Source: Zymoseptoria tritici IPO323 (lineage: Eukaryota; Ascomycota; Dothideomycetes; Mycosphaerellales; Mycosphaerellaceae). From it: 64,000 nt of DNA. The stretch spans positions 372,001-436,000 of the forward strand of contig NC_018205.1 in the NCBI RefSeq assembly GCF_000219625.1, given 5' to 3'. Position 1 is the first letter of the stretch, and the number at the start of each line of letters is the position of its first letter. Shown piece by piece: positions 13,234 through 60,358 of this stretch. The notes under the pieces were generated by a model. It worked only from the letters and a program-made list of their open reading frames with translations. It did not search any database and was not told the origin of the DNA. A program made the position numbers and the translations under genes.

Positions 13234-13271
13234 CGTGGCCGCTGTCTCGTCTGAGCTGAACCCAGGATCAT

Positions 13272-27268: not shown

Positions 27269-27273
27269 CCCTC
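27269..27273 (+). repeat. target-site duplication CCCTC (left)
   Basis: Repeated at 33630-33634, directly outside the copia copy 2 LTRs and within exon 3 of the MFS gene. Confidence 0.9.
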
Positions 27274-27444
27274 TGTTGTGGATTATCAGACTGACTATTA
27301 GTGAAGTGCACGTGACTAGTGCTAAGGCATTCCTACATATAGATAGCTAAAGTAAGAATCTTACACTTAAGATTCTCTCTGCATAACAATATATACCTGC
27401 TAATTAGAGGTCTTCTTCTACTTAGCTTAAGTCTAATTATAACA
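27274..27444 (+). repeat. copia copy 2 5' LTR
   Basis: 171 bp, starts TGTTGTGG and ends TATAACA. Followed by the GGTTATAAGCCCGG primer site. Confidence 0.92.
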
Positions 27445-27621
27445 GGTTATAAGCCCGGCGTAACTACTGCATACTTAAGGAAGAATTATCTGTTCTAAGC
27501 GTAGCTACTAGAACCTTACTATATACTATTTAGACAGTTAACTAGCGAGCCGAGAAAGAGCTAGTTATAATAACAGCCGTAATATAGGCTAATAAGTTTA
27601 AGACTACGAAAGAGAATAAAG

Positions 27622-30600: not shown

Positions 30601-32237
30601 TAAGTCCTAAAAGCTTAGGTATATTTAGATTCTTAAGAAGTAGAAGATTAGTTATAAGAAAAGACTATAGCAAGATCTAGAAGATAGGACTTAAAGTAAC
30701 AAATCCTAATCTGTCTAATCCTAAGATAGTTAAGGAAGCTCTCTCTAGATCTAACTATAAGGAATAGGAGAAAGCTATTATTAAGAAAGCTAAGTTACTT
30801 AAGTCTATAAGATACCTTAAATAGAAACTTATTAGCACCTTCCCTAAGGGAAGAGTCCCTTTTATAGGGAAATAGATCTTTAAGATTAAGGTACTCTTAG
30901 ATAAAACTATAGAGAAGTATAAGGCTAGATAGACAGCTAGGGGATTTATATAAAGGAAGGGACTTAACTATATTAATACCTTTGCTCCTACCCTAAGAGC
31001 TATAATAGGGAGAATACTTCTGTCCCTTTTAGTTAACTTTAGCTAGAAGAGGAGATAAGTTAATATTAAGACTATATTCCTAAATTTAAACCTAGATAAG
31101 CAGATCTTTATTAAGCTACTAGAGGGAGCTTATCTCTTTAAGAAAGATGCTTATAAGTATATTATATATATTAAGAAAGGACTATATAGGCTTAAGTAGG
31201 CAGCTGCTCTCTAGTACTACAATACTATAGATACTCTCTAAAAGCTTAGTCTAACAAGAACTGTTAGCGATGCTTACCTCTTTTAAGAGAAAGGCATCCT
31301 TGTTCTCCTTTATATAGATAACTTCTAGATCTTTAGATAGTTAGACTATAAGATTAATAAGCTAATTAAGGGATTAGAGCAAAAGTATATAATTAAGGTT
31401 ATTAATACTAATGTCTTTCTTAGACTTTACCTAAAGGAAGGGAAAGATAGCTCTATATCTGTCTCTTAGGAATACTATTCTAGAGACAAACTTTAAGGAT
31501 ATAATCTTAGTAATGCAAAGAGTGTTAAGTACCCCTTTAACACTCTCCTTAAACCCCTCTAGGATAAGGGAATAAAGGAGGACTATAATCTCTTTAATAA
31601 GATTATTAGGGAACTGCAATATCTGTTAAACTATACTAGACTAGATATTAGTTTTACTATTAACTATTATATAAGGTTCCTTTAGAACCTAGGACCTTTG
31701 CATATTTAGGTAGCTAAATATATCTAGAGATATGTTGCAGGTATAATTAATAAGTGCCTTATATATAAGAAAACTAAGGAGCAAATTTAGATTAAAGCAT
31801 TCTTAGACTCTAACTTTACTAGTAATCTTAGTATATCTAGGTCTACCTTAGGAATGCTCTTTAAAATTATAGGAGGCCTAGTTATCTAGAGATCTTAACT
31901 ATAGAAAGAAGTAATACTATCTAGCACTAAGGTAGAGTACCTCTCTCTTACTAAGGTAATAAGAGAAGTAAATTAGGTAAGGAATCTTATTAATAAGCTC
32001 TAGCCCTTTACCTAGGCTAAAAGCATTTCTACTATCTTTATTAAAGTAGACAATTAATTAGCTATTAGCCTTGTAGAAAACTATACTAACTCTAAAAGAT
32101 TAAGATATGTCTCTCTTAGGAACTATTACTATAGAAAATAACATAATAAGGGGAGTATTAAGGTAGAGTTTGTAAGGACAGATATATAGCTTGCAGACTG
32201 TCTAACAAAACTAAAATCCCTAAATACTATCCTCTAA
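27622..32237 (+). pseudogene. copia gag-pol of copy 2, RIP-inactivated
   Basis: Same frame and domain order as the copy 1 polyprotein, ending at the stop 32235-32237. The integrase Asp-Arg-Gly-Gly-Glu motif is at about 29497. The RT catalytic Tyr-x-Asp-Asp-like site reads Tyr-Ile-Asp-Asn here but Tyr-Ile-Asn-Asn in copy 1, so the two copies were mutated separately. Stops are TAG/TAA only, at Gln- or Trp-like codons. Confidence 0.9.
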
Positions 32238-32311
32238 TATATAGATCTATAAATCTAGCAAAAAGATACTTATATATCTATATTAGGCAGCTAATATAGA
32301 CACATAAGAGA

Positions 32312-32382
32312 GGCTAATATAGGAATTAAACCTATAACCTTCTAATTTGTAGTTAGAAATTATACTACTAGACTAACTAGCC
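32312..32382 (-). other. tRNA-Cys-like cloverleaf inside copia copy 2
   Basis: The counterpart of 20170-20240 with the same stems. The anticodon loop is CTACAAA, and a G to A change at position 34 explains it as former GCA (Cys). The T stem (ATAGG/CCTAT) is perfect. Confidence 0.6.
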
Positions 32383-33342
32383 CTTAATAAGAAGAGGGAA
32401 ATTGCTCTTAAATTTATGTCTTAATACCTATATTCCTACCTAAGAAGGATTCCCTTCCTAGAATTATACTATTTTATTTATTATAAAACTAAGAAGCATA
32501 ATACTTAGAACACTTATTTTATTCTTATCTATATAAAGGAAAGGAGGTAACTATATACCTCTACAAAAGTATCTAAGAAACTATAAGAAAAATACCTAGC
32601 TAAAGGAAAACTTTTCTATAAAAACCTAAAAGTATTAGAGTATGTCCTAGAACCTATAGCCTACCCCCCTAAAACTACTACTAAAAGACTAAGTTAATTC
32701 CCCTAGAATCTTAACTTAAAGCCTAGGAGAATATTAGTTTCTATTAGGGAAGAAGGGATTTTAAGGAGAATATATACAGGATGCTATATTACTAACTACT
32801 ACTTTATCTCTGCCTTATTAGAGCTTAACATTTAGCTAAGAGGAGTCTAGTTATAGTATAACACAAATCCCTAAGGATTAGGAGTTATTAGACTAGGGTA
32901 GTTTTCTATTAAGAAGGCCTACTCCCTTAGGTTATACAGCTCCTCTATTACTATATTAATAAGGTCTGTAGTAAGGAGATCCTTATTAAGCTTAGCTATA
33001 AACCTATTAAAGTAAGCTATAAAAGAGAAGGGACCCTAAGCCTTAATATTTACTTTGTTATAGTGTCTATTTATCTCTCCTCTAATAAGTTAATATATAG
33101 TCTAATATGCTATAGAACTATCTTTATAGATCTATAGGAGATCTCTACTACTAATAGTTCTTGCTTTATCGATAACTTACTAGAAGGTTTTCCTAGGGAT
33201 AGAGAAAGCTGCTCTTCTTCTAGAAGCTATAGCTAGTAATATAGATTATATTATTAATAGCTATAAGGGATAGATAATAGATTAGCTAATAAATTAGCTA
33301 AATAAATAAGAGGTGTAGATTATAAAGTAGAGGAATAAAAAA
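32383..33342 (-). pseudogene. antisense accessory ORF in copia copy 2
   Basis: Same position and frame as the antisense ORF of copy 1 (about 20241-21200), again interrupted only by TAG/TAA. It shares the Tyr-Lys-Asp-Ser-Ser and Gly-Pro-Phe-Ser-Phe segments. Function unknown. Confidence 0.38.
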
Positions 33343-33458
33343 GCTAGAAGAAGATGCTTTTTAATAAGCTAAAGCTAAGTATTAGCTACGTAATAGGTAA
33401 ATACCTGCTATATTTAGGTAACAAACAGCTCGTAATAATGCAGCTGCTAATAAGGGAG

Positions 33459-33629
33459 TGTTATAGATTATTAGACTAACTATTAGTAAAGTGCACGTAA
33501 CTAGTGCTAAGGCATTCCTATACATAGATAGCTAAAGTAAGAATCTTACACTTAAGATTCTCTCTGTATAACAATATATACCTGCTAATCAGAGGTCTTC
33601 TTCTACTTAGCTTAAGTCCAATCACAACA
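33459..33629 (+). repeat. copia copy 2 3' LTR
   Basis: 171 bp, starts TGTTATAG, ends TCACAACA, then CCCTC. Preceded by a purine-rich tract (AAGGGAG). Confidence 0.92.
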
Positions 33630-37534: not shown

Positions 37535-39610
37535 ATACCTCCCTCAGCTTGATTACCTAAGAAAGCTGATATATTAAAAACATAGTGGCCAATTCACCTA
37601 ATTCCAAGGCTCGCTCTGAACGTATGGAATGGCTGCTTAGGCAGGTTCTTAGTGAATCCATTAGCTCGTTGCTGGGCAGTTAGAATCCATTCCACCTCCA
37701 GCCTTCCGGCCATTGTCTCTTGGCGGATCCAGTGTTGGTAAATATCCACATGGCGCAGAGCTGTGTGGAGTGACCCCTGCCTATTATTGGCAATATTAAC
37801 TGCCCTCTGGTTGTCGCAATAAACCTTAGTTGGTTCAGCACTTGTAGTGTTAACTGCCTCTAATAGAAACACCTTCTTAATCTCTAATAGAAGCCTTGAC
37901 TACTAATAACCACTGCTAGCAATGGCAGACAATGCTAAGAGCTTAGCCTCTGCAGTTGATTTAGTGACAGTCTTCTGCTTATTGGCCTGCTAATCTACTG
38001 CGGCCCCATACATTATTATTAAGAACCCCTAAGAACTCTTCCTGTCGGGGTAATTACCAAAGGAGGCATCCACATAGAGCTCCTTTTGTAGTTTGTCCTT
38101 ATAGAACCACATCTTCAAATGCCTAGTTCTATAGAGATAGACAATTAAGTAATTAGCTGCCTCTATATGTTGCTTGCTTGGATTCTGCAAGAACTGTAAG
38201 AGAGTTGCATATGCCTTGGCCACATTAGGCCTAGCTAGCACTGCAGTATAGCTAATAGAACTAACTCTTATCTGATAGGCCTTAGTGAACTTAGGCCTAG
38301 CTATATCCTCTGCCGGAACTAGCTTGGTTGTAGGTAGTAGAATGTCTGGAAACCTGGCTCTCTTATAGGCATTGAACTTGATTCTAATGCGTGTTAAGTA
38401 GGCAGTTTGACTGATGCTAAGGCCCTGTTCAGATTCCTTAATCTCTATGCCTAGGAAGAAGTTAGTTAGCTTCTGAGTAACCTTAAAATTGCTAGTTAGG
38501 TAATTGTAGAACAGGTTAGCCTGTTTACTATCCTTGTAAATCAGCCTAATGTTATCTACATAGAAGATTAGGATTAACTGCAGAGCTTAATTAACTATTA
38601 GACACTCTATGCCTGGTGCCAGTTTAAACCTATAGTCTTCCATTCTGATTACAAACAGGTCGTACTAAAGTCGTGGTAACTCTGCTAATCTATAGAGTGC
38701 CTTCTACAGGAGAAGACAAGCGTTGTTGCTAAGGCCAAGTTGATCCATACCCTCCGGAAGTGAGTAGTACACTGTATAAGGGATCACTGCGTTTGGAAAC
38801 GCATTAACAACATCCCATTGCCTTGTCTGTAGGTTCTTGGCGTAAGCGAATGTAGTAATTGCCCTGAACACCTTATAGCCAAGTGTAGCTGCGTAGGTTT
38901 TATGCGTAGATAGAAGCTGCAGATCGCCTCTTACACAGAGACGTGCCTTGAACCTTGTTACTTCACCGGTCGTTAGATTAGTTTTGTAGGTAAAGACCTA
39001 TTTCAGAGGCACCTTATGGCCTGCGTGGCTATAGACTACCCTATAGGTCCCCTTGGCTCTAAGTTTCTCAAACTCCTCTATTGCAGCCTAAGTAAACTGC
39101 TGCCTATGTTGATGCCTCTAGAGTTCCTTCTAGTTAGCAGGTGGTAATAGAGAGCTCGTGTCTTAATGTGGTTCTTAAATAATAGGAGGATTGTAAGCCT
39201 GGAGAGAGATTGCAGCTGCAGAAGCCAGCTTATTCTCTACCTCTATGTTCTCCACCTCTATGTTCTCTACCTCCCCATCTTTGGCAGGGGTCTCTGGTGG
39301 AGTTAGATAGGCATTATCTAGCTTGTTACCTCCCTGCTGTTTACCTCCCTAAGGTTGAACAGCAAACACAGGCACACTATCTGCAAGATATAGGTTATCT
39401 ATGTTGTCTTGTGGCTCCTCGGGCATTAAGATTAACTTAATTACAGTCTGATAAATAGCTGCTGGAACTAGTTCACCCAGAGTCTGACTATTAATATCTA
39501 GTAGATTATAACGTTCGGAATCCTTGAACATTACATCTCTTGTTCTGACTACCTTGTCAAGTACTGGAATCCAAATCTAGAAGATGTTAGTTAAGCAGTA
39601 GCCTATTAAG
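37535..39610 (-). mobile_element. copia C, downstream half (RT and RNase H)
   Basis: The minus strand encodes Ty1/copia RT and RNase H. 37594-37872 has the RNase H end (Tyr-Cys-Asp-Asn-Gln-Arg-Ala, then Arg-His-Val-Asp-Ile-Tyr-Gln-His-Trp-Ile). 38029-38241 has the Ala-Arg-Pro-Asn segment and Tyr-Val-Asp-Ala-Ser-Phe. Left of it, GCTGAGGGAGG (minus strand) looks like a polypurine tract followed by TGTTGCGACC, a probable 3' LTR start at 37535; the LTR's far end is unclear. The element is cut at 39610 by Gypsy A and resumes at 61897. It carries fewer stops than the copia pair, so it is less RIP-damaged. It is a different copia family from copies 1 and 2. Confidence 0.8.
39606..39610 (+). repeat. 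target-site duplication TTAAG (left of Gypsy A)
   Basis: Matches TTAAG at 61897-61901. Confidence 0.88.
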
Positions 39611-41340: not shown

Positions 41341-44300
41341 TTATTACTCGATAGGTCGATATTATATTGTCGCAGGGACATCGCATAGTCTCCGCTACGT
41401 TTAATACAGGGTCGCAAATCACCCTAATCGACCAGAAGTTTGTAGTTCGCTACGACCTCGCAACGGTCGAGGCCGAACTCCTATCTCTAGTTTAGCTTTA
41501 AGATCAAAGTATAACCTGTTATAGCGCGTATAATGTTCCTGTTCGGATAATGGACGACAATAGTATCGTCAAAGAACACACTATACTTATGTATAGGGTA
41601 GACAAGGATAGACTAGAGATCCTCTTTAGACAACATACTATGACGACGAAAGGAATTAACATCTAGGTCGGTGCGGGAACCTGGCGATAGGGTCTAGGGA
41701 CCGAAACTATTAGCAGGATCTCGTACAAAAGATTAAAGAAAGAGTCGAGGAACGACAAGACTCCGCTTGTTGTCGTCGGGTGGATTACAGTGACACCTGC
41801 GGGATCCATGCGCCTCGCATATACCGTCGGCTTAGCTGAAGTAAAGGTGGTTGAAATCCCTACGGCTCTCTTAGACTACACCGACGTATTTAACTCTAAC
41901 TCCGCTTCTGCGTTGCTAACGTATCGAGCTACCGACTATGCTATTAACTTAGTCGAGGGCCGGGAACTACTATATAGCTCCCTATACAACCTCTCGGAGA
42001 AAGAGTTAGGTATCCTTCGGGATTACCTAGAAAAGGAGTTAGCCTCGGGTCGTATATAACACAGTATTAGCCCTGCGGGTGCACTAGTTATCTTTGTTCT
42101 AAAGAAGGGCGGCGAGCTGCGTTTGTGCGTCGACTACCGAGCACTCAACTCTATTACTATTAAAGACAGATGCCCTCTGCCTTTAATTAATAAAACCTTG
42201 GATCGCCTAATAGGTGCGAAGTTCTTTACTACCCTCGATCTTAAGGAAGCATATCATCGCATCCGCATTCGTAAAGGCGATGAATAGAAGACTGCGTTCC
42301 GTACGCGGTATGGCTATTACGAGTATAAGGTTATGCCCTTCGGCTTGACTAATGCTCTAGCCACATTCTAGGCCTATATTAACTGTGCCCTAGCAGGCCT
42401 TCTCGATAACCTTTGTGTAGTGTACCTCGACGACATATTAATTTACACCTACAGTAAGGACATCGAAGACTATTAGGCTGCAGTCCGCAAGGTCCTGGAC
42501 CGCTTGCGTATCGTAGAATTGTACGTTAATCTTAAGAAGTGTACCTTCGCGGCACAGGAGGTTTCGTACTTAGGGTTCCGTGTTACGACTAAAGGTGTAA
42601 CTACCGACCCTAAAAAGATCGCAACGATCTAGGAATAGCCGCAACCGAATAGCGTCCACGACGTTTAGGTCTTCCTAGGTTTTGCAAACTTCTACCGACG
42701 CTTCGTGTTAGGATTTGTAAAGATTAGCAGCCCGATTACTAACCTGCTCTAGAAAGACAAGGAGTTCGTGTAGGGCAGGGAAGCTAACGCGGCTTTTAGA
42801 AAGCTAAAGGAGGTGTTTACTAGCGATATTGTTCTTAGGCACTTCGATCCGAAACTGAAGATCAAGCTAGAAACGGATGCCTCTAACTATAGTATCTTAG
42901 GTATTATGTCGCAGCTGTATCCAGATGGTAAATAGCACCCCGTGGCGTTTACGTCTCGAAAGATGCAGCCTGCGGAGCGCAACTACTAGACGTATAATTA
43001 GGAGTTGTTAGTAATAGTGCACTGCTTTAAGGTGTAGAGGCACTATTTTAGTAGTTCGGAAAACCCGGTCTAGGTTTATACGGACTACAATAATCTAAAA
43101 GGCATTTAGACTGTCCAGAAGTTGAATGCGAGGCAAGCGTAGTACGCACTGTACCTAGGCTTATTCGACTTCGAGATTTTCTATTAAGTAGGGAAATCAA
43201 ACCTAGTAGACGGACTATCTCGCAGACCGGATTACTAGACTAAAAATTCGGCTGTAAACGAACTACTTCTAACTCTGTAGAACAAGCTGAAGTTGGCAAG
43301 TTAGAGCGTAAGGGTTGCGTTCGCTAGAATCGCAACCGAAAAGGATTAGGGACCCGATTGCGGTAACATACCGTAGGGAGATCGTAACGACCTCCCGGAC
43401 TAAAGCAATGTAGTCTTTGCAAAATCCCCCGTCGCTGGCACTTCTGAATGCATGCAGATCGTGCTACGCTGTATAGCAAAAGTCCTGCTTACTAGCGCAA
43501 CCGCATCTTCGGAAGATTCAAAACCTTTCCTTAAGCTAGTATCTTCGCTATAGGATCGCGACGACTTTGTCAAGCGATAGAGATCTGGCGAAGAGGTATA
43601 GATAGAGAGTCGGAAGAAGCGCGGGAGTTAAGCATAGAGCTTGGGAGACGACAACTTGCTCCGTAGGTACGGCAAGTTGTATGTACTAAATAAACCGGCT
43701 GTAAGAAACGAAGTTATAGCGGTTTACTACGACTCTAAGCTTGTAGGACATTTCGGCCCCGATAAGACTATTAAGCTTATTGCGAGGTCCTTATACTAGC
43801 CCGAACTAGACGCGGATGTTAAGCACTTCGTAAAGACATGTAATGTCTGCTAACGAATAAAGGCTCCGAGATTGTTGCCCTTAGGCAAATTGTCTAGCCT
43901 GCTAATTCTAGGAAAGAATTAGGAAGAAATCACCCTAGATTTTATTATAAAGTTGCCGCCGTCGAAGCGTAACGATAATGTATTCGATTCTATACTTATA
44001 ATCGTAGACAGACGATTAAAGATAGTATTGTATATTCTAGGAAAAGAAACTTAGAAAGCTTTAGACTTCGCTAAAGTATTTATAGATCGAGTAGCGTCTA
44101 AGTTTAGTTTCCCTAAAGGCATTATGTCCGACTATAGTACACTCTTTATATCTGCATTTTAGAGAGAGCTGTGTTTTTAATGCTAGATAAGAAGAAGACT
44201 AAGTACCGCGTACTATCCGTAAACAGATAGTTAAACTAAGCGTTAGAACCAGACGCTAGAAGGATTCCTAAGAGCATTCTATAATAAGAAACAGAATAAC

Positions 44301-46536: not shown

Positions 46537-46809
46537 TGTAGTGGGGAATATCGCACTGTCACGTGCGGTCTGTATCTAGCTTCAGCTTCGTGTGTAGGTC
46601 GGAGGATCATAAAGACACCGACCTAGAGAGACACGACCCCACGCACACGAGGCCTAACAGTACAGAGCTCTTAATACTACCTCCTTTGCCCCCCTACCTT
46701 TTACTCTAATTGTACAGTTTACCGCCCTTTTTGCCCCCTATGCTACTCTATACGTCCGCACTGCTACTATCCGCGGGAGATCGGAACCTTTGGAAGTTCC
46801 CCCCTTACA
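46537..46809 (+). repeat. Gypsy B 5' LTR
   Basis: 273 bp, nearly identical to 60086-60358 with a few transitions. A frame crossing its end (46790-47002) is not called. Confidence 0.92.
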
Positions 46810-47328
46810 TTTTAGTGGACGATGTAAGACTCCTTCCTTCGCGAAAGCGGAGAAGGAGGATATACAAAGGGTAGGCAGCAGTGCGGAAGTGCGGAGTAGC
46901 TACGACCTCGACAACAGCGCCGGTCGCCTTTCGAGTACTTACGACGTATACGACGAATACCCTCCCTCGAAGAAAGGATTACGATATACCTCTGCCCCTT
47001 AGCTAGGGCAGTAGGCTTAAGTACCTAAGTTTAAAGTCCAAGTTCAAAATACAAAGTACCTTAATGTACAAATCGCTGTGTGCACATTGCTGGATCTACT
47101 ACCGAATACACCCCAAATACACGAACACACGAATACACACACATATTCCCTATACCCTACCGAGCTGTACACCCTACGCCAAGCAGCTCGTCGATACAGC
47201 CTAAGAAGGAGAAGGAAGAAAGCGAGGGAGCAAAAGAGTACATAAAAAAGGGACACTAACATCGCATAGAGGCTCGGTATAAAGCGCTCTCGCACTAATG
47301 TATGCAACCGCGCTACCGGACTCGGATG

Positions 47329-47985
47329 CACGCCCTTAAAGCGCGACGCTATAGCGGAGAGCATATCGACCACAATAGACGCGATTTAGGGCGTAAAGAA
47401 GCCTCCTAGGCCCAAAATCGTACTGCTATAGCTTTTCCTACACCCGACTACCTGCCGGTGAAGGTAAGCGAGACGAGCAGCGACCGCACCTGCCGAGGCA
47501 GGTACGCTAGGCGTGCGGTAAACCCCATACGAGGCGCTCGTGAAGAAAAGAAAGAGAAACAGGGTGGAAAAAGAGCCCTTAAGTACCTGGAAAACTTTAC
47601 CGGTCGCGGTAAAAGTTATAATAGATATAATAGACATCGGAGATTATCGCTCCTACACCTGTACGAGCGACTACGCTACCGAGCTTAGCTGCACGCCTTT
47701 GAAACGCGACACTGCTACGGAGATAATATCGACTCTAGCGGATGCAAAATGGGGTGAAAACAAGCCTCCTAGGGCCAAAATTGTACTGCTATAGCTTTTC
47801 CTATGCCCGACTACCTGCCGAGGCAGGTAGGCTAGGCGTGCAGCACAGCCTATGCGTGGCGTTCGTAAAGAAAAGAAAGAGAAATAGGGTAGAAAAAGAG
47901 CCCTTAAGTACCTGGAAAACTTTACTAACCGCCGTAGTAGCTATAATAGATATGCTAGATATTGGAGAATACTCGGTTACGTAAG
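47329..47985 (+). repeat. 362-bp tandem duplication in the Gypsy B leader
   Basis: Unit 1 (47329-47690) and unit 2 (47691 to about 47985) share landmarks in the same order: GCACGCC, GCCTCCTAGG, ACTGCTATAGCTTTTCC, a CTACCTGCCG segment, then AAGAAAAGAAAGAGAAA and a segment starting CCCTTAAGTACCTGG. They have diverged by transitions and small indels. The leader (46810-48639) otherwise shows no gene. Confidence 0.85.
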
Positions 47986-48285
47986 CCGTCCCGTGCTCTT
48001 AATAGAATAGCTATAAGAAACGAGACTAACCAGCTATTATGGCGTAGGCGTCGCGAATACCCTGAGAAACGTCGCCCTATCGCACCGATCGTCCGACCGC
48101 TCCTCGGTGTTGCTTTCCGAGGCAATAGCAGATGATATCGCTACGAACCCGGCACTAGAACTAGGGAGCACATAAGCCCTGCCTAGATCTACCGACACTA
48201 GGTTCTCGGTACGAGAATGCAATGTATAGTTCTCGGCTCTAGCTAGCTAGAATAGTCTAAGAGGTGCGACCTTTCGAGGATGGGA

Positions 48286-48324
48286 TGTTTCCTAGACTAA
48301 ATTAGGAAGAGGGTCTAGTAAACA
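48286..48324. repeat. TGTTTCCTAGAC hairpin, copy 1
   Basis: TGTTTCCTAGAC at the left arm and GTCTAGTAAACA at the right, about 15 bases between. Upstream of gag. Confidence 0.7.
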
Positions 48325-48560
48325 AATGATACCGAGCTACAGACCCTAGACGCATCCCTAGTCCTTATTTCCCTACCCTAGATTCTTCTATACCGCACGA
48401 GGAGCGATCCTGCCTTATTCTCGAGTTTCTGGATACTCAGCCGTCCTACGTGCCCGGAATGTACGATTACACCCTGCCCGCACTAAGGAGACTATCGAAT
48501 ATAGCCCCGGACTATGTGTAAACGGCATAATCAGCTGTAGTGCACTACTAGCAGCAACAA

Positions 48561-48588
48561 TGTTTCTTAGACTAATAGTCTGGCAAAC
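48561..48588. repeat. TGTTTCCTAGAC hairpin, copy 2
   Basis: TGTTTCTTAGAC, a 5-base loop, then GTCTGGCAAAC. It lies 52 bp before the first gag frame. Confidence 0.75.
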
Positions 48589-48639
48589 CCTTAAGAGCTT
48601 TAAATAGCCTACTCCCGCCGCCCCGGTATTAACGACGAC

Positions 48640-51600
48640 TTGCTAACCTTTTCCTATACGCCTTCTGAACACATATCTGCACTCCTTACTTCCTATTTCC
48701 CTATTTGTAATACTAATCTGCACATCGCTATTACGATGTCTCCTAATAACACTCCTAACAACGGCCCGGACGGACCTTCCCGTCGTGGCTATCTTAATAC
48801 TCCCTCGGAGATTCTCCGCAATACCCTAAGCACCGGCGAGGCTTCCGGAACTAATAGCCCTATCTGGGCACCTTCCGATGCACGCGCCTTCCGCGATAGC
48901 AATAGGATTCTATTAGCTCGCTTTGCGACTAATTCGACTAAAGGGTCGACTAATAAGGCTCTCCCTTAAGCCGAAGGGATTACTGCTGCAGCGACCTATA
49001 GTACAGTTCCCGCTCCCTAGCCTGCTAACATAAACATCGCAGATCTTGTTACTGCCCTTACCGCGGCTACTCGCAATAACAGAGCCCCTGCTTACCGTAG
49101 TCGCGTACCCTTCCCTAGAGAGCCTGGTGCTCTATCCTTCGACGGTAAGGATGCCTCGACTTTCTTTTAGACTATAGCCGACTTCTTCGATTTGTACTTT
49201 GAAGGATTACGCACTCCTAATAGGGAAAGGATCCGACTTGCTGCTCGACACTCGGTGCCGGATATTCGAGCTTAGCTCGAGAGTCTTTTAGGCTTTAACA
49301 GCGATAACTACGAAGCTTTTAAGGAAGAGGCTCTTTCCTACTATCGGTGCTATAATAGCCAGGTGTATAAGTATAGCCTCCCTTTCCTCGAGGAGCTGTG
49401 CGCAAAGGAAAGAGTCTGGGATGTCTCCGGACAGAAGGATAACCTGCGTTAGTACGTTATAACTTTCAAAGCGGTCTCGAAAAGGATACCTCTTAAACAG
49501 TGCAACGAAGTTGCTCGATACTACCTCTTCCTTAAAGGCTTGCCCTCCGAGGTAGGATAGGAAATTATGAACAAGCTCGAAGTAGACGTCTCGAACCTAG
49601 CCTCCTGTACTTAGCTTCCTCTATTGTACGATGCGACACTTAAGTACGTTACAAGCCGCATAGCTTACTAGGAGTTGTACGGTAAGGGTAAGAGCCAGGT
49701 TACTAGCTAGCTTGTTAACTAGACTAAGAAGAGGTATCCGAAGCTGGATGCATCGAACGATAGAGTCTGGTTGTTACGCGTACTAAAAGAGAAGCTGCCG
49801 GACATAGAGGACCTGTCTAAAAAGCTTTCTAAGATAACTATTACTAAGATTAAGCGTGCGAGAGCTAAGAGAAGTGTACGTGTAGCTGTTAATCTACCTG
49901 GAGACTTTCCGAAGTCTTATATGGCTACGCTGCATACAGATAACACCCCTAATTCTCCAGAGTACTACTCGTACAATGTCGCTGGACCTGGACTAGTGCC
50001 CTATTAGTCGTCTAGCAGCTCGAACCCCTTCTACTAGGAAGCCTCTAAGTATACATGCTTTTATTGCTTTAAACCCGGTCATGGTGTTCACGAATGCAAG
50101 TATATAAACTACCTCCTAAGTGCGGGCTAGACACACCGCGACAGTAAAAAGAAGTAGTATATCGGACGAGAAGGTAATATTAACAGACGAAAGGTGCAGT
50201 TCAGGAACTAGCCGGATTAGCCTAAGCTCCGGATAATAGCTCCCGCTATCGAGAAAGCATAGGGAAGGGCTATCACCTGGCCTGCCGATGCGAATATCGA
50301 GGATGCTAAGAAGTACTAGCTAGCTTATAAACTACCTGCAGCTGCCTTTGCTCCTCGGACATATATACCGAGTACACCTCTTAACCCGGCACTTGTTCCT
50401 AGCCCTGTTCCACCGACCTCGAAATCTGCACCCTCGTTACTAGCTTAACCTAGTCACCTAGGCTAAGGCTTAGGTTCCCCTGCAGGACCCGCACTAGCGA
50501 CGAACATAAATAGAAACTAGTGCAACATCGTCGCTAGAAGTACGGTTCCTAAGGATCTGGTGTACATTAATAAGCGAGACCCCCGTGCCCCCTATGTAAA
50601 TCAGATCCGTACTAACTCTCTGTCTGCGAACGCTGCGACTAGGCTAACAAGCACGACTAAGGGAAAGGAGCCAGCCGCCAAGCCGAGTAATAATACCAGC
50701 CGTGTTGTGAAGCTAAAGAAGACAGTGTCTATTAAGATCGATGCCCGCAAGATCCCTAATACGGAAGAGTACATAAAGGTAGTCGAAGAAGGCTCGCAGT
50801 CGACACAGGGCACTCTTACTAGTAATAGTGCATTTGACACCGGTAACTAGCCGTAGTCCGCAAACGACAGCTAAACCCAGGACCCTACTAGAAGCATAGA
50901 TCTAGATCCTACCCCTCCTTCTTAGGGCTTCGTTAACCCCCCGCTGCTGAAGAAAAAGAAGAACCAGAAGCCTGCTACGACTAGAAAGGGTGCTTAGAGA
51001 AGGGACATTTACCTTCGAGAGCGACTTAATATAGAAAAGGTGCTGCTCGACAGGATACTAGCGCAGCCGTCTAATATCCCTATTAGGGAGCTTCTCGCTG
51101 CCTCGCCTGCTGTAGCTAGGGGACTTCTTAAGCGCTGTGCTCGGAACTAAGAAGACTTCGCAATAGCTGCTAAGGAAGCCGGGCTGTCGATTATTGTCAA
51201 GGAGGACAACATTGCTGCTACTGTAGTATACTAGTACGATATGGATAAGCCGCTTCGTTCTTACGGGGTGCGAGTCGAGTTTGAACTTAGCAGTGCTACG
51301 GCTAAGCACATCCTGCCCTCTGGATTTTATGTACGCAATAGGTTCGTAGAAGAGATAGAAGACGATAACCCTGCTTTCCTCGGTCCTATAATTAAGGAGC
51401 TATATGTTACAATGCCCCCGAGACTAATGTAGGACCTGTACGAAGACCCTAAGGACGCGAGGTTGTCCTTTAACGACCGAGACTATGTTATTGTACCCTT
51501 ACCCGTTGTAGAATGCATTGTCGGTCCGAAACGGCACAGGGAGCGTCGTACCATAATTAACGAGGGATCTAAAGGGAACATTATAAGCTAGTCTACGGTA

Positions 51601-51960
51601 AAGCGAGCGGGTGTTAGCATACGCACCTGCCGGCCAATACAGATAAATACGGTTAGTAGCTGTGCGGATTTCCTGGGTATTGCAGAGCGGGTACCGATCG
51701 AGGTTATAGGAGTCCTTACCTACTCGTCGTTTCTTGTTGCACGGACTGCACCTTTCCTTCTTGGCCGACCATGGACTAGATAGGTGCGGCTTAGATCTAT
51801 AAACTGCGACGACGGGTCCCTCGAGTGTACAATCGCGACACCGGATAGAACAACGATTACCTTTACTAGAGTTAAGGGATATAGAGATAGGTACAGTCCG
51901 ACCGAGGCATTCTATACGACCAAGCCCGAGGAGTCGGGAAACGAGTAGGCTGCCGACACC
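48640..51960 (+). pseudogene. Gypsy B Gag and protease region
   Basis: One frame from 48640 to about 51960 with TAG/TAA stops; the ATG at 48736 is an alternative start. An N-terminal Asn/Pro/Ser-rich region leads to a capsid-like region with Pro-Phe-Pro-Arg-Glu-Pro-Gly-Ala and Phe-Asp-Gly-Lys-Asp-Ala (about 49110-49160), a Tyr-Tyr-Leu-Phe-Leu-Lys-Gly-Leu helix, and a zinc knuckle (Cys-Phe-Tyr-Cys-Phe-Lys-Pro-Gly-His ... Cys, about 50050-50100) that is still intact. A long Pro/Ala/Lys linker follows (50300-51000). About 51240-51930 has beta-rich segments typical of a retropepsin-like domain. The pol frame is -1 relative to this one, the switch falling near 51960. Confidence 0.75.
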
Positions 51961-54900
51961 CCGGTAACGCGGTAGCATTATTTAACTATCCGGAGGATTA
52001 CTTGTAGTCGTCCGGAACGAGACTGCTAGTCGAAGTCGACCTAAAACCTTTCCTAGACCCCGGGTCTAGCAAACATTTCCTCAGCACCTAGGATAAAGTA
52101 AGGGCTTGGGACGAGTTCCGGACTATTACCTCGACAAAATATACTATTAATCCCTCGGATATAGTCTGGGAAACTACCTTATAAGCTCGAGTAGCGTCGC
52201 TAATTATTAAGTAGGCGGATATTCTCTAGTTAGATTACCTCTAGCGAAAAACGGAATGGGAGGCAGGATCCGCTCCGAATGCATACACTATGTACAAACG
52301 CAAGGCGGACAAGATCAGACCCGTTGATAGTAGTATTCACGACACTAGCAGCAAGCCCCCTAGTAGTACTTTCAACTAGCGGCAGAGATGTCTTAAAAAT
52401 GAGGCCAAACTCACGCCGAGTACGCACCCCTGGGACAACAAGTACCTTATCCCTAAGTTTTCCGACATCGAGAAGGGTTCGAGACTTACCCCTGAACGCA
52501 TAAACAGCTTTAAGACTACGATCGAACTAAGGCCGAAAGAGCTCGAGCTTTTCTATGCCTGTCTCTTCCGACGAGAGAAGTCTCTTACTTGGGATTTCTT
52601 ATATGTTAGTCGCCTTAACGAGGATGTTTCCCTACTAGTAGAGATCCGTACGATTCCGTATAAGGCCTAGTAGTGCAAGAACTTCCCTATCCCCGCAGCC
52701 CTCGAGAAGGTAGTAATACAGATAGTTAGTAAGCGAGCCCGCAATAGAGTGATCGAGCTATCCTGTGGTGCATACCGGAACCCCTGGTTTATCGTACAAA
52801 AGAAGCTAGACAACCTAAAGCTACTAAAAGCTAAGGACCCTATGCCGGAAGGGGAGCGTGTCTAGGAAAAGAAGGAGGAGAAGAAGTACCGACTTATTAA
52901 CTTAGCTACAGAAGTGAACCGTGTCACGCTAAGGGATGCTAATATGCCACCGGACGCAGACTCCTTTTCCGCAGACTTCGTAGGGTGCACTACTACCTCG
53001 CTTATAGACCTCTTCTCTAGATACGACCAAATACCCCTGGCCGAGCACTGTCGGGACCTTACCTCCTTCCACACACCGCTCGGGCTGTTTAGGCACACAG
53101 GGATTCCTATAGGCGGAACGAATTCGGTCGCTTAGTTCCAAAGGATCATAACTACTATCCTTTAGGAGCACATGAATTACCGAGCTCGCCCCTTTCTGGA
53201 CGACATTAGAGTTAAAGGTCTACGCACTACGTACGATAACGAGGAAACCGAGCCCGGCATCCGACGTTGGGTTACGGAACATGTTACGAACCTTGACGTA
53301 GTCCTTGCCGACATTAAGAGAGCCGGACTTACTATATTAGCTCTTAAGTCGCGATGGTTCTCGACAGGGGTACTAATTGTCGGGTACGTTTGTGATGTGC
53401 ATAGCCGTCACCCTAATAAAGCACGAGTCGTTAAGATCACCGAGTGGCCTGCTCCAGACAACCCTAAGGAGGTTCGAGTATTCCTAGGCGTGGTCGTGTA
53501 CTTCCGGATCTAGATTAAGAAGTATGCATAGGTGTTAGCTCCGCTATACAATCTACTAAAGCCTAATGTGTGCTAGTGTTAGACCGCCGAGTATAACGCA
53601 TCGATGGAGAAATTAAAGAAGGCTCTCGTTACTGCACCGGCTCTTAAGACTATAGACTACGTTTCGGGAGGACAGATCATCCTTGCTGTTAATGCATCCG
53701 GGGATAGGTTCGGAGTAGTCCTTATGCAACGAGATGTCGACAACTACAAGACAAGACACCTATCTCGGTATGAAAGTAGCATCTGGAAGCCGAACAAGCG
53801 AAAGTTCGATGCTAGGAAACTTGAGTGTCTCGGTGTTTTAAAGGCATTAAAAAAGCTAAAGCACCATCTCTACGGTGTTTACTTCCTGCTTAAGCTAGAT
53901 GCGAATACTCTAGTCCATTAGTTGAACCGACTACCGACCGACTTACCTAACGTAGTAATAACAAGGTGGCTTTTATGGATACGACTGTTTGATTTCGATG
54001 TGAAGCATGTTCCCGGCCGACTGCACACTGCTGTAGATGCGCTGTCTCGACGACCGCGTACTTAGTCCGATAACATTAACGAGGAGCATAAGCAGGACTA
54101 CGAAGAAATAATTGACAGTACGCTGTATGCAGTGTACGCGAATCGTGTTAAGGCCGAAGAGATTACCCCTGCTCTAGAAGAGGAGCTTGTTCGGAGCAGC
54201 ATTAACAGCTTCCTCTCGGACTTCTACCGCGATATAGCATACTACCTCCTAACCCTTCGACGACTAGTAGGAGTAAACAGGAACAGCTGGTATGCCTTTA
54301 AGAAACGGGCATCTCGCTACCTAGTTAGGGAACGCTGCCTGTAGTATTAGAAAAGAATTAACAAGCCGCTGTGCAGAGTTATGGACAAGGAGTCTAAGCA
54401 GAAGTCGATTATCCGTACCCTCTATAGGGACCCTACCTCCGGCTATAGAGGGCGTAAAGGGACCTACATAAAGATTGCTTGTCGGTATTACTGGCAGGGC
54501 CTGTATAAGCAGGTCCGAGATTTCGTCGGAAAGTGCCCCGAGTGTCTTCTTCGATCGTCCGGACTAGCAAGTGTGTCGGAACTGCACCTAAGATACAACA
54601 GCTATGTTAGCGAGTCGTAGCATGTAGACGTCGTTTATGTCGATAGCTCCGGAAGCATTATTATAGCTAGGGAGTCTCTCTCTAGATGGCCGGAAGGAAG
54701 GATCGTAAACAAGGGGCAGAATTAAGGTGTGAGCTTAAGGCAGGTCGCGAAGTTTCTTTTTGAAGACGTCTTTTTACGCACTGGAGCCTGTAACCGGATC
54801 TTCTTTAATAGAGGGCCTAAGAACTACAGCGATGTGCCTCAGCTGCTAGCTTAAATAGATACAAACCTTAGTTGTGTGTCCGCCTACTACCCTAAAGCGA

Positions 54901-55700
54901 ACGGTCTAGTCGAGCGTAGACATCCCAACATCCTAGACGTCCTCTTAAAGTGCACGTAGGGCAAGCTAAAGGGCTGGAGATCCTTTTTCCACGCAGCACT
55001 ATAGGCAGACCGCACTACTGTTCGCAGGTCTACGGGATGTACGCCGGCAAGTCTTTTCTATGCATTTAATGTCGTCCTACCTATTGAGCTGCGGTACGAC
55101 ACTTGGAAAACGATTAACTGGAAGATAGTGCGTACGACCAAAGACTTGCTAGCTGCTCGAGTAAGGCAGATCTTCTGCTCTAAGAAGGATGTTAGAGAAG
55201 TTACCGCCCTGCAGCGCAGGCTACGAGATGCCTAGAAGGAGTACTAGGATATAAACTATAATGTCGACAACAAGCCGCTTAAGAAGGGGCAGCTCGTGCT
55301 GTTAAAAAGAGGCGAGCGAAAGTCTACCTACAAGAAGCTGTCCTTTTAATAGAAGGGGCCCTACCGAGTAACAAGTGTAAGCCTAGACACTAGTACCTAC
55401 AAGATTGCAGAACTAGACGAGGCAGAGCTCTAAGGCACATAGTCTAGGGACATGCTTCGGGTAGTCCCTGCAGACTACCTCGAGCATGTTAATAAGCTCG
55501 AAGAGCTGACACGCGGCGACTTAAACCCTAAATAGTTTGCAAGTGTTAAGAGTGAGGATAAAGAGCCGGCATTACCTTAGGGCGACGACCCTGCCGCTGA
55601 ACAGTACAGAGAACCTGCTCCCGGACCTCCGAACATCGTGCAGGGGGTAAGGGAATCCTCGCTGTCCCCGGAAGAACGATTATAGTACCTAAGAATCTAA
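51961..55700 (+). pseudogene. Gypsy B Pol (RT, RNase H, integrase)
   Basis: After the frame change the RT N-terminal region is at 52480-52880 and its core follows (Phe-Ser-Arg-Tyr-Asp-Gln-Ile-Pro-Leu, then Thr-Pro-Leu-Gly-Leu-Phe, about 53010-53100). The expected Tyr-x-Asp-Asp block reads Phe-Leu-Asp-Asp at about 53191. RNase H follows (about 53600-54050, ending Asp-Ala-Leu-Ser-Arg-Arg-Pro). The integrase has a His/Cys zinc finger (Cys-Pro-Glu-Cys near 54535) and a core with Tyr-Tyr-Pro-Lys-Ala-Asn-Gly-Leu-Val-Glu-Arg (about 54890), which carries the catalytic Glu. No chromodomain is visible, unlike Gypsy A. TAG/TAA stops inactivate it. Confidence 0.88.
52048..52074. repeat. TGTTTCCTAGAC-type hairpin inside pol
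   Basis: CTTTCCTAGAC, centre CCCGG, then GTCTAGCAAACA. It is the only copy inside an ORF. Confidence 0.6.
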
Positions 55701-55724
55701 GTGCGGCCATAATTCGTATTAAAA

Positions 55725-55753
55725 TGTTTCCTAGACTAAGGGTCTGGCAAACA
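55725..55753. repeat. TGTTTCCTAGAC hairpin after pol
   Basis: TGTTTCCTAGAC, 5-base loop, GTCTGGCAAACA: nearly perfect arms, just behind the pol end. Confidence 0.8.
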
Positions 55754-55783
55754 TAGCGACGGATGCTCTCGGCTTACTATAGT

Positions 55784-55810
55784 TGTTTCCTAGACTAGTA
55801 GTCTGGCAGA
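55784..55810. repeat. TGTTTCCTAGAC hairpin, degenerate
   Basis: TGTTTCCTAGAC, short loop, GTCTGGCAGA. The right arm is damaged. 30 bp after the previous copy. Confidence 0.6.
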
Positions 55811-56109
55811 GGCTCCGCTCGCTCTCTCGGGCAAACATTATTATTACCCAAAGAGACACACACATTTCTTTATGTTAAAGTGAGCTCTTTCGCTTACAAC
55901 AAGACCCCCGGCACGACCTTATCTCCGTCCTCGCCGCTATCTATCTAATAGACCGACACCGCCAAACTCTTCCGCACTACAATCACTAGCGCATTTACGA
56001 AGAACAATTACGAGCAAATTCACGCACACAATCACGAGCGAGCAGCTGTTGTTGTTGCCTCCTGCCGGCGGACATCTTTTAAAGGCTAGTGCTGCCGGAT
56101 AGGCCCAGT

Positions 56110-56148
56110 TGTTTGCCAGACTATTTAGGGAAAGGGGTCTAGTAAACA
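56110..56148. repeat. TGTTTGCCAGAC hairpin in the spacer
   Basis: TGTTTGCCAGAC, about 15 bases, GTCTAGTAAACA. Here the two arm variants are swapped relative to the other copies. Confidence 0.7.
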
Positions 56149-56375
56149 TTTGCGAAGGATAGGACATTGCCTAGGTGTCTCTGCTGGCTACGACTAATCC
56201 ACTATTGTTCAGAGCGTACTAAACACACGTTCTCTACCCTAAAGGGGAGGGAGTTACAATTTACGAAGCTTGGTCACCCTCTCGGATATTTAGGGGCTAG
56301 GCTGCCTTTTTCTGGACAATTATGTACATTCTGCTACAATTACGAGACTGCTAATGCGAAACATTCACCGACATA

Positions 56376-56580
56376 ACAATTACCGACACAACAATTACAG
56401 GCCTTTCCTGATAATTACGAGCTCTTCTAACAATTACGAGTACAAGCACGCATATAATTTACGAACTAACAATTACTAACACAACAATTACCGACATAAC
56501 AATTACAGGCCTTTCCTAACAATTACAAGCTCTTCTAACAATTACGAGCACGAGCACGCACACAATTCACGAACAAGCAA
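56376..56580 (+). repeat. 108-bp tandem duplication rich in CAATTAC
   Basis: Two units about 108 bp apart share ACAATTACAGGCC, TTTCCT and GCTCTTCTAACAATTAC landmarks. The CAATTAC(G/A) word also recurs at 55975-56040. Non-coding spacer between pol and the extra ORF (55701-56965). Confidence 0.75.
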
Positions 56581-56796
56581 GGGACCCGCTTTCTGCCTGC
56601 TCGCCCTACTTAAAAGCCTTAATCTTCTCTACACCTCCGACTTCCCTACAACATCTACTATATCTTCTTTCTTTCCTATCTCCTTGCACCCCCCCTAACG
56701 ACTCCTTTTCCTCCTAGACGAACCTTATCTGCGTCCTCGTAGACCTTCGACCTGATTAAACACTATCTACGAGCCCCCCCTCGACATACTCACCAA

Positions 56797-56895
56797 CCGA
56801 GCGCATCAGCGCATACAATACACATACTAACCGAGCGCATTAGCGCATACAACACACATACCAACCGAGCGCATTAGCGCAAAAACAGCTTCGAA
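56797..56895 (+). repeat. 34-bp tandem repeat
   Basis: CCGAGCGCAT(C/T)AGCGCA recurs at 56797, 56831 and 56865 with a 34-bp period. About 70 bp upstream of the extra ORF's ATG, so possibly its 5' leader. Confidence 0.8.
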
Positions 56896-56965
56896 ACGAT
56901 ACGAGCGCACCGAGCGCATACAACACACCTTAACAACGAGCGTAACTGCGCATACTACTACCGAC

Positions 56966-59719
56966 ATGGACAACATCCTGGCTCGCCTCCGGAGCGCACC
57001 CTTAACAAACAATGAAGAAATGCGTGTAGCCTTCTCGACTGCGTAGAACACTAGAGAGCTGGGAAAACTTAAGAGTCTCCTTAAGAGTATGCCAGATGCG
57101 GACCGCGAGCGAGTAGTGTTAGACATCGTTAATACCTTGGAATTAGGATTGGAAAAAGCAGTAGAGTTTGCAGTAGGCATGTGGGATTTCGTGCGGATAA
57201 ACCGGGTCCCTATTACCTTAGGAACCGGGAGGATTACTAGACAGGATAGTATTGTAGCTACTTATCCGAGGCTGGTAGCGGCAGCTACGGATGGCAGGAG
57301 GACCCGCAACCGCAAGAAGGGCATTTACGACGCCCTTACAAAAGAATAGGGATAGGACGTAATGGATGTAAACCCGGAACTAAGGTAATACGTGTACAAA
57401 TCCGAGAACATAGCAAAAGAGATTCGAAAGCTGTCTTCGAAGTACAAGACGTAGTCCGATAAGGGTACGACAGTAGCTATGCTTGTTTTACGAGAATACA
57501 TTCGTCAGTACAGTTAGGGTGCTAGACAGGGATATGTGGATCCGAGAGGGACTAAGTATACTACCAAGGACTTCTTTATAGTCGCTAAACTAGGAGGAAT
57601 CGATCGCCCTACGTAGGAGCAGATTAACATCGTGCGCAATACGTACAACCGGCACATGGATAGTCGTAGGTAGATAGTGCCCTACAAGCCTAAGGGAAAG
57701 GAGAAGGAAATTGCGTCTGGATCTAACACTTAGAAGCAGATCGAAGCACCTCCCGCTATAAGCACGCGGTCCAAAACTAAGGAAAAGCCAGCTAATCTCG
57801 GCAGTCTTCCTATCCGCGGTACTCCTTCCGAGAGTGGCTCCGGCCGCCCCCAAATACTATACTCCGGCAGATCCATTTCTAGCCCTAGTCTCGGAGGGAG
57901 TATCTACGCGTCTCCTATTGTTCGTACTATAGGAAGGGCTCGTTCGGTAAGTTAGGCAGTAACTGAAACATAGATCGCTCTCGGCATGCCTATTACGGAA
58001 CCTACGAACACGACCTGTGATTGCAAGAACGCCTTACCTTAAATCATCGCTACGATTAATAGCCTAAGGAGGCTTCCGCTTTCGCAACGCCTTGCTACCC
58101 CGAACTAGCTGTTTCGATGCCTGCAGCTGCTGTATCCGGACAGTACGAAGCCAAAGGATAAGTGCACGTTCCTGTGCTACAACTATGCGAGGGACCTGCT
58201 TCGGTACTTCGGAATTAAGGTAAAGACCGGGAATGTAATAGCAAAGAATAACACGCTCTTTAAACTTACTACCCTTAAGTACGATACGTATAAGCTTAGC
58301 TAGCTAAAGACAGGTTCCGAGACGTATAAGATGTGGTTTAAGGATGCTCGTCCGTCTCGACTATCGGACTTCCTTAGGCCGTACCGCTTCGACAATAACG
58401 TTCCACGTAGAGAACTCGGCTAGCTTAACTTTGACGGCTTCTTTAACAAGGCTCGCCAAGCGATGTACTTGACGGCCGGTTAGGAGAACGAGTTTAAGAG
58501 AAATGGCACGCTTAACATTCCCCTCTTCGCGTAGATCGGACAGGACAAGGCCCTTTGCAAGATTATTAATAAGGAAATAGATATGTACTTGTGGCATTAG
58601 CGCGAAATTAATGGCTAGCCTAACTACGGATGGCTTCGCACGATGTGCTACTCTTAGATCTAGCAGCTTATCCGCTAGGACATCTTATACTAGCTGCTAT
58701 ATGTTCTTCTGCGAGGTGACTATAAGCACCGGCTGGTGTCGTACCTATACTACGCCAAAAGCACTAAGAAGGGCGACAACACTACCTTTAAGCACATCGA
58801 CCTTACGGTCAGCCGTATAGTCGAGGAGAATTGCGGTATTAACCAGATTTAAGGTACGGTCTCCTTAACAGACGAGGGCAAGAAGGACTGTACGGTGCTC
58901 GTTAAGAGGATGCACGAGAAGGAGATCTTTTAGGAATAGTACTAGTAGATGAGGGCTAACAACTGCGTAGACGGAGTAGTACAGAAGATTAATAATACAG
59001 TGCTGCCGTAACACTTCCTGGATCGCCATGAGCTTAAGTAGGAACACGTTCCTTGCAAGGCATTTGATGTTCGCATTATAGTTCCGCATCTGCTACATAG
59101 TGTCGACACTAAGGTAGAGACCGAACGTCGAACGATTCTTCCCTAGTTCGTAGCTGTGTATGTAGATGGTTCTCTCGAGTGTGCCGAAGCTGGTGACTAG
59201 GAGATGCTGCGCAAAGCTTACATAGACCTGACCGCCCCCGACAAGACACCCTCCGGTCTTATTAACAAGTACGGCAAGATTCCTTACGCCTTCCCTGCGG
59301 CTGTGTCTTTAATACCTAACAACTACATCGCTGCTGCACTTGTTGCTTACGAGAAGTAGGAGAGCCCTGGAGTCGTCGTCGAACTAGAGAAGCTTATACG
59401 CCTTAATGTTGTCGATCTAAGGGCATAGATTAAGAAGCAGCGGGATGCGACTGTAGCTCGAGTGAAGGCAAACTATAAGGACATTAAGTACGCGGAGAGG
59501 AATACGTTCGGTAACCGATCGTACTACAACGCTAAGGACAAGCACCCGACCGACTTCTAGAAGCACTAACCTCTACTAGCTAAAGTCGCTCCTAACGATG
59601 CAGACGACAGGGAGCATAAGCTGCTTAGGCAGGGAGATACGGACATCGCAGTACCCCAGGAAGTCCCCGACTTACTTATCGGCAAGGATAGCAAGCGCGT
59701 ACCTGGACGCGACATGTAG
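56966..59719 (+). pseudogene. Gypsy B extra ORF, putative Fe(II)/2OG dioxygenase-like protein
   Basis: One frame of 918 codons runs from ATG 56966 to TAG 59717-59719 and keeps its register throughout; internal stops are TAG/TAA at Gln-like codons. The N-terminal 120 residues are helical and charged. A basic Ser/Pro/Lys linker follows (about 230-330), then a helical domain with Leu-Cys-Tyr-Asn-Tyr-Ala-Arg-Asp. Residues 608-612 read Phe-Lys-His-Ile-Asp (HxD at 610/612). Pro-His-Leu-Leu-His-Ser-Val gives a distal His711 (or 708), and Arg721-Arg722 follow about ten residues later, the HxD...H...R order of Fe(II)/2-oxoglutarate dioxygenases. The function is inferred from that pattern and a remembered resemblance to fungal hypothetical proteins. 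It sits between pol and the 3' LTR, in pol orientation. Confidence 0.5.
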
Positions 59720-59751
59720 TAGGAGGATAGTACTTAGCGATAGGTTTACAA

Positions 59752-59790
59752 TGTTTCCTAGACCAAAATCCGCATCGGGTCTGGGAAACA
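59752..59790. repeat. TGTTTCCTAGAC hairpin after the extra ORF
   Basis: TGTTTCCTAGAC, 15 bases, GTCTGGGAAACA, 32 bp behind the extra ORF's stop. Confidence 0.75.
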
Positions 59791-60085
59791 TTTAGTGCGA
59801 ACAGGACATAAGGAGCGGCTGTTTTCTGCACTAGCGCTTGTTTTAAGGTTCTTTTTTTCTTTTTGTTGTTTCTTTTGTTTTGTTTCTTTTGTTTTGGATG
59901 CGATGCATGCGATAGACATACGTAGTAGGTACAAAACCCGAGGATGGGGACAGTCTACGTTAGCAACAAGTTGAAAAGGACGACGCTAGTGCTAGATCTG
60001 GAGGGTTTTTACGCTATAAGCGTACACAATGGTATGGTTTGGGTTCTTGCAGTGTCTGGGTTAGACACTACAGGAGGGGGACGGA
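59791..60085. other. pre-LTR segment of Gypsy B
   Basis: T-rich run (TTTTTTTCTTTTTG near 59850), then AGGAGGGGGACGGA directly before the 3' LTR, a likely polypurine tract. No gene. Confidence 0.55.
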
Positions 60086-60358
60086 TGTAGTGGGGAATAT
60101 CGCACTGTCACGTGCGGTCTGTATCTAGCTTCAGCTTCGTGTGTAGGTCGGAGGATCATAAAGACACCGACCTAGAGAGATACGACCCTACGCACACGAG
60201 GCCTAACAGTACAGAGCTCTTAATACTACCTCCTTTGCCCCCCTACCTTTCACTCTAATTGTACAGTTTACCGCCCTTTTTGCCCCCTATGCTACTCCAT
60301 ACGTCCGCACTGCTACTATCCGCAGGAGATCGGAACCTTTGGAAGTTCCCCCCTCACA
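60086..60358 (+). repeat. Gypsy B 3' LTR
   Basis: 273 bp, starts TGTAGTGGGG, ends CCTCACA, followed by AGAC. Confidence 0.92.

Follow-up and report, generated by a model that had tools for sequence, protein, structure and literature searches.

We analysed a stretch of 64,000 nucleotides (the window; C14:372001-436000, with coordinates given in window numbering unless a contig is named) from Zymoseptoria tritici IPO323, a pathogen of wheat; nothing observed here connects the transposon gene described below with virulence. The genome searched comprises 39,686,251 bases in 21 contigs, and IPO323 is described as having 21 complete chromosomes (PMC4502367). The window contains a Ty3/Gypsy retrotransposon of 13,822 bases (46537-60358), assigned to this class by its paired long terminal repeats (LTRs), short target repeat and order of pol domains. 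Between pol and the 3' LTR, where a preliminary description made from the sequence alone had placed it, lies a third, large open reading frame (ORF) that is interrupted by stop codons and, judging from its sequence and from structural models of its homologues, is probably the remnant of a Gypsy-lineage gene for an Fe(II)/2-oxoglutarate (2OG) oxygenase of a PhyH/DUF1479-like branch (Table 1).

Both LTRs start with TGTAG and end with (C/T)ACA, AGAC flanks the element on either side, and the 6 differences between the two LTRs are all transitions. Inside the element, a leader with repeats precedes a frame that, from its motifs, resembles gag and protease and in which the Pfam scan found no match. 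The reverse transcriptase, RNase H and integrase domains follow in this order within a single frame, as in Ty3/Gypsy elements; the Pfam scan of pol found no match to the rve integrase core. The motif GTCTGGCAAACAT and its inverse, allowing up to 2 mismatches, match 10 times, against 0.77 expected, between positions 48285 and 59791, all within the Gypsy element, and some of these matches form inverted pairs that flank the third ORF (55724/55742 and 56109/56137 before it, 59751/59779 after it).

Table 1 Features of the Gypsy element and its third ORF (RIP, repeat-induced point mutation; DSBH, double-stranded beta-helix)
Feature	Position	Strand	Basis or detail
5' LTR	46537-46809	+	273 nt; direct repeat, 98% identical to 60086-60358
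gag-like frame, RIP-damaged	49138-51588	+	Read by eye, frame of window:46810
CCHC zinc knuckle in gag-like frame	50056-50097	+	By eye, motif
Protease-like stretch in gag-like frame	51553-51588	+	By eye, motif
pol	52872-54557	+	Pfam scan, frame of window:51003
RVT_1	52872-53387	+	Pfam
RNase H (RT_RNaseH)	53586-53981	+	Pfam
Integrase_H2C2	54390-54557	+	Pfam
Spacer, pol to ORF	55905-56965	+	About 1 kb; tandem 108-nt repeat; no codon-position bias
RIP-damaged ORF, probable dioxygenase	56966-59719	+	918 codons, 36 internal stops
CxC (residues 351-353) and C404	58016-58183	+	Part of conserved Cys/His site ahead of the DSBH; alignment
FKHID with H610-x-D612	58787-58801	+	Predicted first two metal ligands; alignments
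LLHS...ERR with H711 and R721/R722	59090-59131	+	Predicted third ligand (H711) and 2OG side (R721/R722); alignments
Purine-rich tract upstream of 3' LTR	60071-60085	+	By eye
3' LTR	60086-60358	+	273-nt direct repeat

Translation of the third ORF bears out the single register with TAG and TAA breaks only that had been described for it: there are 37 stops including the last one, namely 32 TAG and 5 TAA, with TGA absent. Over the same interval, the two remaining forward frames contain 47 and 73 stops, TGA among them. CA-type RIP converts CAG, CAA and TGG to TAG or TAA and does not create TGA, so that the stops in the ORF fit this type of damage at these codons. The RIP indices of the ORF are 1.66 (TA/AT) and 0.70 ((CA+TG)/(AC+GT)), compared to 1.08 and 1.05, respectively, in bases 1-14000 of the window. 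We compared 20 copies of the ORF, 16 of them full-length; all 599 internal stops in the full-length copies are TAG or TAA, and 27 of the 36 internal stop sites of the window ORF are sense codons in at least one of these copies. Beyond residue 400, the ORF has 23 stop sites, at which tryptophan and glutamine account for 25.5% and 14.7% of the letters in the homologous proteins described below, as opposed to 1.4% and 3.2% at the other positions. Thus, the restriction to TAG and TAA, the RIP indices and the residues found at the stop sites in homologues together indicate that the stops represent damage to a former gene.

Transversions, which are not produced by RIP, retain the trace of coding constraint. 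Across the 20 copies, transversions in the ORF are distributed over codon positions 1, 2 and 3 as 12/8/32 (32 of 52 at position 3; p 3e-5), those in pol as 13/6/29 and those in the spacer, by phase, as 13/16/16; the same alignments contain 3 gap bases in the ORF, none in pol and 609 in the spacer. The stretch 3' of the ORF yields 5/10/14 transversions (p 0.07) and 198 gap bases. Divergent copies follow suit: L029, with 65% protein identity, aligns to the ORF without gaps (transversions 50/33/70), and L030 aligns with 6 gap bases (8/8/34). The ORF is, therefore, the remnant of a gene that was once under selection. A chance open frame in RIP-rewritten DNA, which the 37 stops might bring to mind, is rejected and has a negligible probability given this constraint, the match to intact proteins with E-values down to 1e-82 and the fold of these homologues. 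A tblastn search of the genome with the ORF, in which the best candidates were scored, yielded at least 51 matches, 49 of which belong to the same Gypsy family as the window element (the first family); all 51 carry stops, so that the product of the ORF is apparently not active in the present genome.

A protein search with residues 350-917 of another copy, scored for the 7993 candidates sharing most words with the query, identified at least 27 homologues with 30-40% identity and a best E-value of 1e-82 (25 of them at E <= 2e-61). The whole damaged ORF gave no match in this search, probably because the search words were drawn from its first 500 residues. Most of the homologues (24 of the 27) are 823-1057 amino acids long, one comes with an organism name (P0020, from the fungus Rhinocladiella mackenziei), and one is labelled PhyH by its source; the family otherwise carries no functional name in the sources. 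Pattern matching in collections of viral and prokaryotic genomes gave 24 and 19 candidates, respectively, and tblastn confirmed none of them.

The H610-x-D612, His711 and Arg721/722 residues, singled out in the preliminary description as the signature of an Fe(II)/2OG dioxygenase, are present in the ORF and are conserved among its relatives. In one alignment, 19 of 20 homologues match each of the five, and all 26 do so in a second alignment made without P0027, the only one of the 27 homologues that lacks the named ligand residues. The distance from HxD to the distal histidine is 98-103 residues, and that from the distal histidine to the arginine is 10 residues in 24 of the 26 homologues and 9 in the other two. 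In L031, a copy from a second Gypsy family, both histidines, the aspartate and R721 are retained and R722 is replaced by isoleucine. Ahead of the predicted catalytic domain, the homologues share a further Cys/His site (C366, C368, C409 and H412 of P0020, arranged as C-x-C and C-x2-H, each at least 90% conserved in the 26-homologue alignment) that is possibly metal-binding.

The DSBH fold expected for such an enzyme was recovered in predicted models of two homologues, built for these proteins, which have 36% identity with a sister ORF copy, and not for the window ORF. For a homologue, the model suggests a helical domain at the N-terminus, joined by a disordered linker to a catalytic DSBH at the C-terminus. 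Among the best 50 rows of the fold comparison, the closest solved structures are those of DUF1479 and PhyH proteins, along with EctD and hydroxylases of proline or antibiotic pathways. The DUF1479/GIG2/YbiU and PhyH oxygenases (7twe, 6akz, 4rgk, 2a1x) are similar in fold and only 12-14% identical to the homologues, whose N-terminal helical domain falls outside the aligned part; we know of no transposon link for these oxygenases. PhyH (PF05721) is the only 2OG-oxygenase family matched by Pfam, in 9 of the 26 homologues at E <= 1, and no family named DUF1479 and no AlkB-type family appears among the homologues' matches at that threshold, nor is there an AlkB-type match in the window ORF. Three sequence searches of solved structures found no oxygenase: the first returned a single chain (E 0.95), the second six unrelated ones (E 0.095-0.86) and the third nothing. 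Taken together, the conserved residues and the models lend good support to the assignment of the ORF product to the Fe(II)/2OG oxygenase superfamily.

A relation to TET/JBP enzymes is not supported. Genes of this type occur on fungal DNA transposons, for which counter-silencing has been proposed (Kojima 2025, PMC12730594), and a TET/JBP enzyme in the window element would belong to the same superfamily, follow the same HxD...H logic and be carried in a like manner, by a transposon of a RIP-capable fungus. However, no TET/JBP family is matched by the window ORF at E <= 10 or by the 26 homologues at E <= 1, and the nearest folds are DUF1479 and PhyH, with neither TET nor AlkB among the best 50 rows, an absence that does not amount to exclusion. 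We consider a TET/JBP enzyme very unlikely.

The linkage to LTR elements extends to two Gypsy families in this genome, in both of which the ORF follows pol. Among 52 pol matches, 30 are of the first family, with coverage of 730 or more of 892 residues, and 11 are of the second one (44-48% identity; pol is approximately 46% identical between the families), with 11 partial matches set aside. Every first-family pol is followed on the same strand by the ORF of its family (28 of 30 within 3 kb and all 30 within 12 kb); for the second family, this is the case for 8 of the 11 pol genes within 3 kb, the same 8 of 11 within 12 kb and all 11 within 40 kb, where the three long gaps fit insertions, one of them being the nested first-family copy on C2 described below. 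The partial matches are followed by an ORF in 4, 8 and 9 cases within 3, 12 and 40 kb, respectively. Viewed in reverse, a first-family pol is located within 12 kb upstream of 43 of the 49 first-family ORF pieces. As controls, an ORF match occurs within 12 kb of 4 of 137 other Integrase_H2C2 sites (among the 150 listed) and at 1% of random placements on eight contigs. One Gypsy integrase site lies just upstream of the window element (43695-43865; C14:415695-415865), with no same-strand oxygenase match within 12 kb.

The second-family ORF spans 1,060 codons (with X at stops), is present in 28 pieces in the genome and shows 37-39% identity to the first-family ORF over 173-180 residues (27-38% in the reverse search). 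Its transversions in two copies, 2/3/22, again concentrate at the third codon position. A copy on C21, within 384549-397253, has 251-nt LTRs that are 96.8% identical, a pol with RNase H, Integrase_H2C2 and an RVT_1 match under the cut-off, and then the ORF; a copy on C9 has LTRs 95.1% identical. At C2:3241372-3262000, a second-family copy has its pol separated from its oxygenase ORF by a nested first-family copy, lying between 3243873 and 3258821. With a distant relative in the corresponding place in the second family, the oxygenase ORF looks like a long-kept gene of these elements rather than a recent stowaway.

Elsewhere in the window, two 6.36-kb copies of a very AT-rich element (15131-21488 and 27273-33629) are 95% identical and bear 171-nt terminal repeats; each contains on its minus strand a sequence resembling a tRNA, with anticodon ATA in the first (20168-20240) and ACA in the second (32310-32382), and the two sequences agree at 71 of 73 bases. 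A Copia reverse transcriptase fragment (RVT_2, slightly under the cut-off) occupies 38029-38586 on the minus strand. A sigma-70 promoter scan, unsuited to a fungus, gave matches at chance level.

The genome was also searched with two intact homologues. At least 52 and 56 matches were obtained (with scores for the 50 best of 57 candidates and for 49 of 61, respectively), all of them with stops and all overlapping the places of the two Gypsy families; an intact free-standing gene of the oxygenase family, which should have ranked first, was not found among the candidates scored with either query. The capture of a host gene, raised as an alternative from the outset, thus does not account for the ORF as a recent event here. 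Some intact homologues lie on long contigs and could be host genes (P0020, 4.46 Mb; P0008, 3.74 Mb), but with no intact donor, codon constraint across the copies and the ORF in a second Gypsy family, a passenger recently taken up by one family is highly improbable. Presumably, an older capture started the association. In a phylogenetic tree, P0002, P0003 and P0026 cluster with the first family (91/97), and the branch leading to the second is 3.5 long; long branches and the odd letter composition of RIP-damaged rows call for caution. A single clade of both families' ORFs is unsupported by the tree, requiring 2 changes, with 3% of the bootstrap trees giving one, so that the tree lends no support to one shared capture. 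The association may stem from one old capture or from repeated captures, or the homologues may be mostly element-borne. The pol protein search yielded 288 matches, with fungal names on three of the 120 listed (Paecilomyces and two Penicillium). In a comparison of 26 of the 27 dioxygenase hits with 120 of the 288 pol hits, the dioxygenase P0011 and the pol P0124 come from the same source, both on an 11,007-base contig (chance about 0.04), which is only suggestive of linkage outside this genome.

Several observations weigh against an element-borne PhyH/DUF1479-like oxygenase. At nine of the 36 internal stop positions, every one of the 16 full-length copies shares the stop of the window, and none of the 51 matches in the genome is intact, so that they give no indication of present function. 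Ligands are lost in divergent copies (H to Y and D to N in L029; H to Y in L032). The window ORF itself has no match in the Pfam scan, and of the 9 homologues with PhyH scores, P0012 alone exceeds the cut-off (24.0 vs 22 bits). Two of the 11 partial pol matches have no ORF within 40 kb, the ORFs of the two families do not form one group in the tree (2 changes, on long branches), and the genomic context of homologues outside this genome is represented by one indirect hint.

It seems likely, from the retention and position of the ORF, that the oxygenase served the element. The undamaged protein would have been made alongside Gag-Pol and would have benefited the element by oxidising a substrate from the host or from the element itself. 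The likeliest benefit would be the loosening of silencing, with a methylated DNA or RNA base, or else a protein of chromatin or of repair, as the molecule oxidised; this is the most economical guess given that Dim2 and RIP act on such repeats and that other transposons carry demethylase-like oxygenases, and by this analogy we advance it tentatively, at less than even confidence. A functional dim2 is reported to promote C to T changes at CA sites and in this way probably contributes to inactivating transposons, and methylation defence is reported to vary within this host species (PMC8016269). It is also possible, with about the same degree of confidence, that the element-borne oxygenase had a protein or small-molecule substrate unrelated to silencing (in translation, stress or metabolite hydroxylation, for example) and aided the element via host physiology. 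Most of the DUF1479, PhyH, EctD and hydroxylase fold neighbours act on small molecules or amino acids, which favours such a substrate and counts against counter-silencing. However, fold neighbours do not determine the substrate, and the homologues are large, with the helical domain and the Cys/His site beyond the part aligned to those enzymes. As a whole, the proposition that a fungal Gypsy lineage, of such age that its families now share only about 46% of pol residues, has retained a third gene for a PhyH/DUF1479-like oxygenase directed against silencing in RIP-capable fungi is doubtful. Such a gene would be the retrotransposon equivalent, drawn from another enzyme branch, of the TET genes that fungal DNA transposons carry.

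Plant and fungal Gypsy elements reportedly carry additional ORFs beyond gag-pol. In one study of such elements, where an extra ORF is appended to gag-pol as it is here, no function is known for that ORF, and the word 'dioxygenase' does not occur in the main text (PMC2864245). A close parallel comes from Ty3/Gypsy elements of the orchid Phalaenopsis, which carry an ORF for an AlkB m6A demethylase with measured m6A activity (PMC9289625). Both are large Gypsy elements with an extra ORF that ends in an Fe(II)/2OG oxygenase domain; the orchid element, however, is from a plant, 25.5 kb long, with 6.4-kb LTRs and an AlkB-type enzyme (PMC9289625), whereas the present one is fungal, 13.8 kb long, with 273-nt LTRs and a PhyH/DUF1479-like domain recognised from sequence and models. 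The TET/JBP-bearing transposons are likewise fungal and carry a gene of the same oxygenase superfamily, but they are DNA transposons, and their study reports that no retrotransposon with TET/JBP was found (PMC12730594); here, the carrier is an LTR retrotransposon and the oxygenase has no TET/JBP match. Zymoseptoria transposons have been treated in several papers (PMC9970103, PMC8445621, PMC8759822), in one of which the available text contains no occurrence of 'oxygenase' (PMC8759822). None of the titles and abstract openings searched names an LTR element from a fungus that carries a gene of the PhyH/DUF1479-like type, with most subscription journals, preprints and supplements outside that search.

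Accessory genes retained by retrotransposons indicate what limits these elements. If the oxygenase has indeed been kept behind pol in two Gypsy families, this would suggest that mobile elements repeatedly recruited oxidative chemistry. The result supplies a concrete protein family, functionally nameless save for one PhyH label, for assay.
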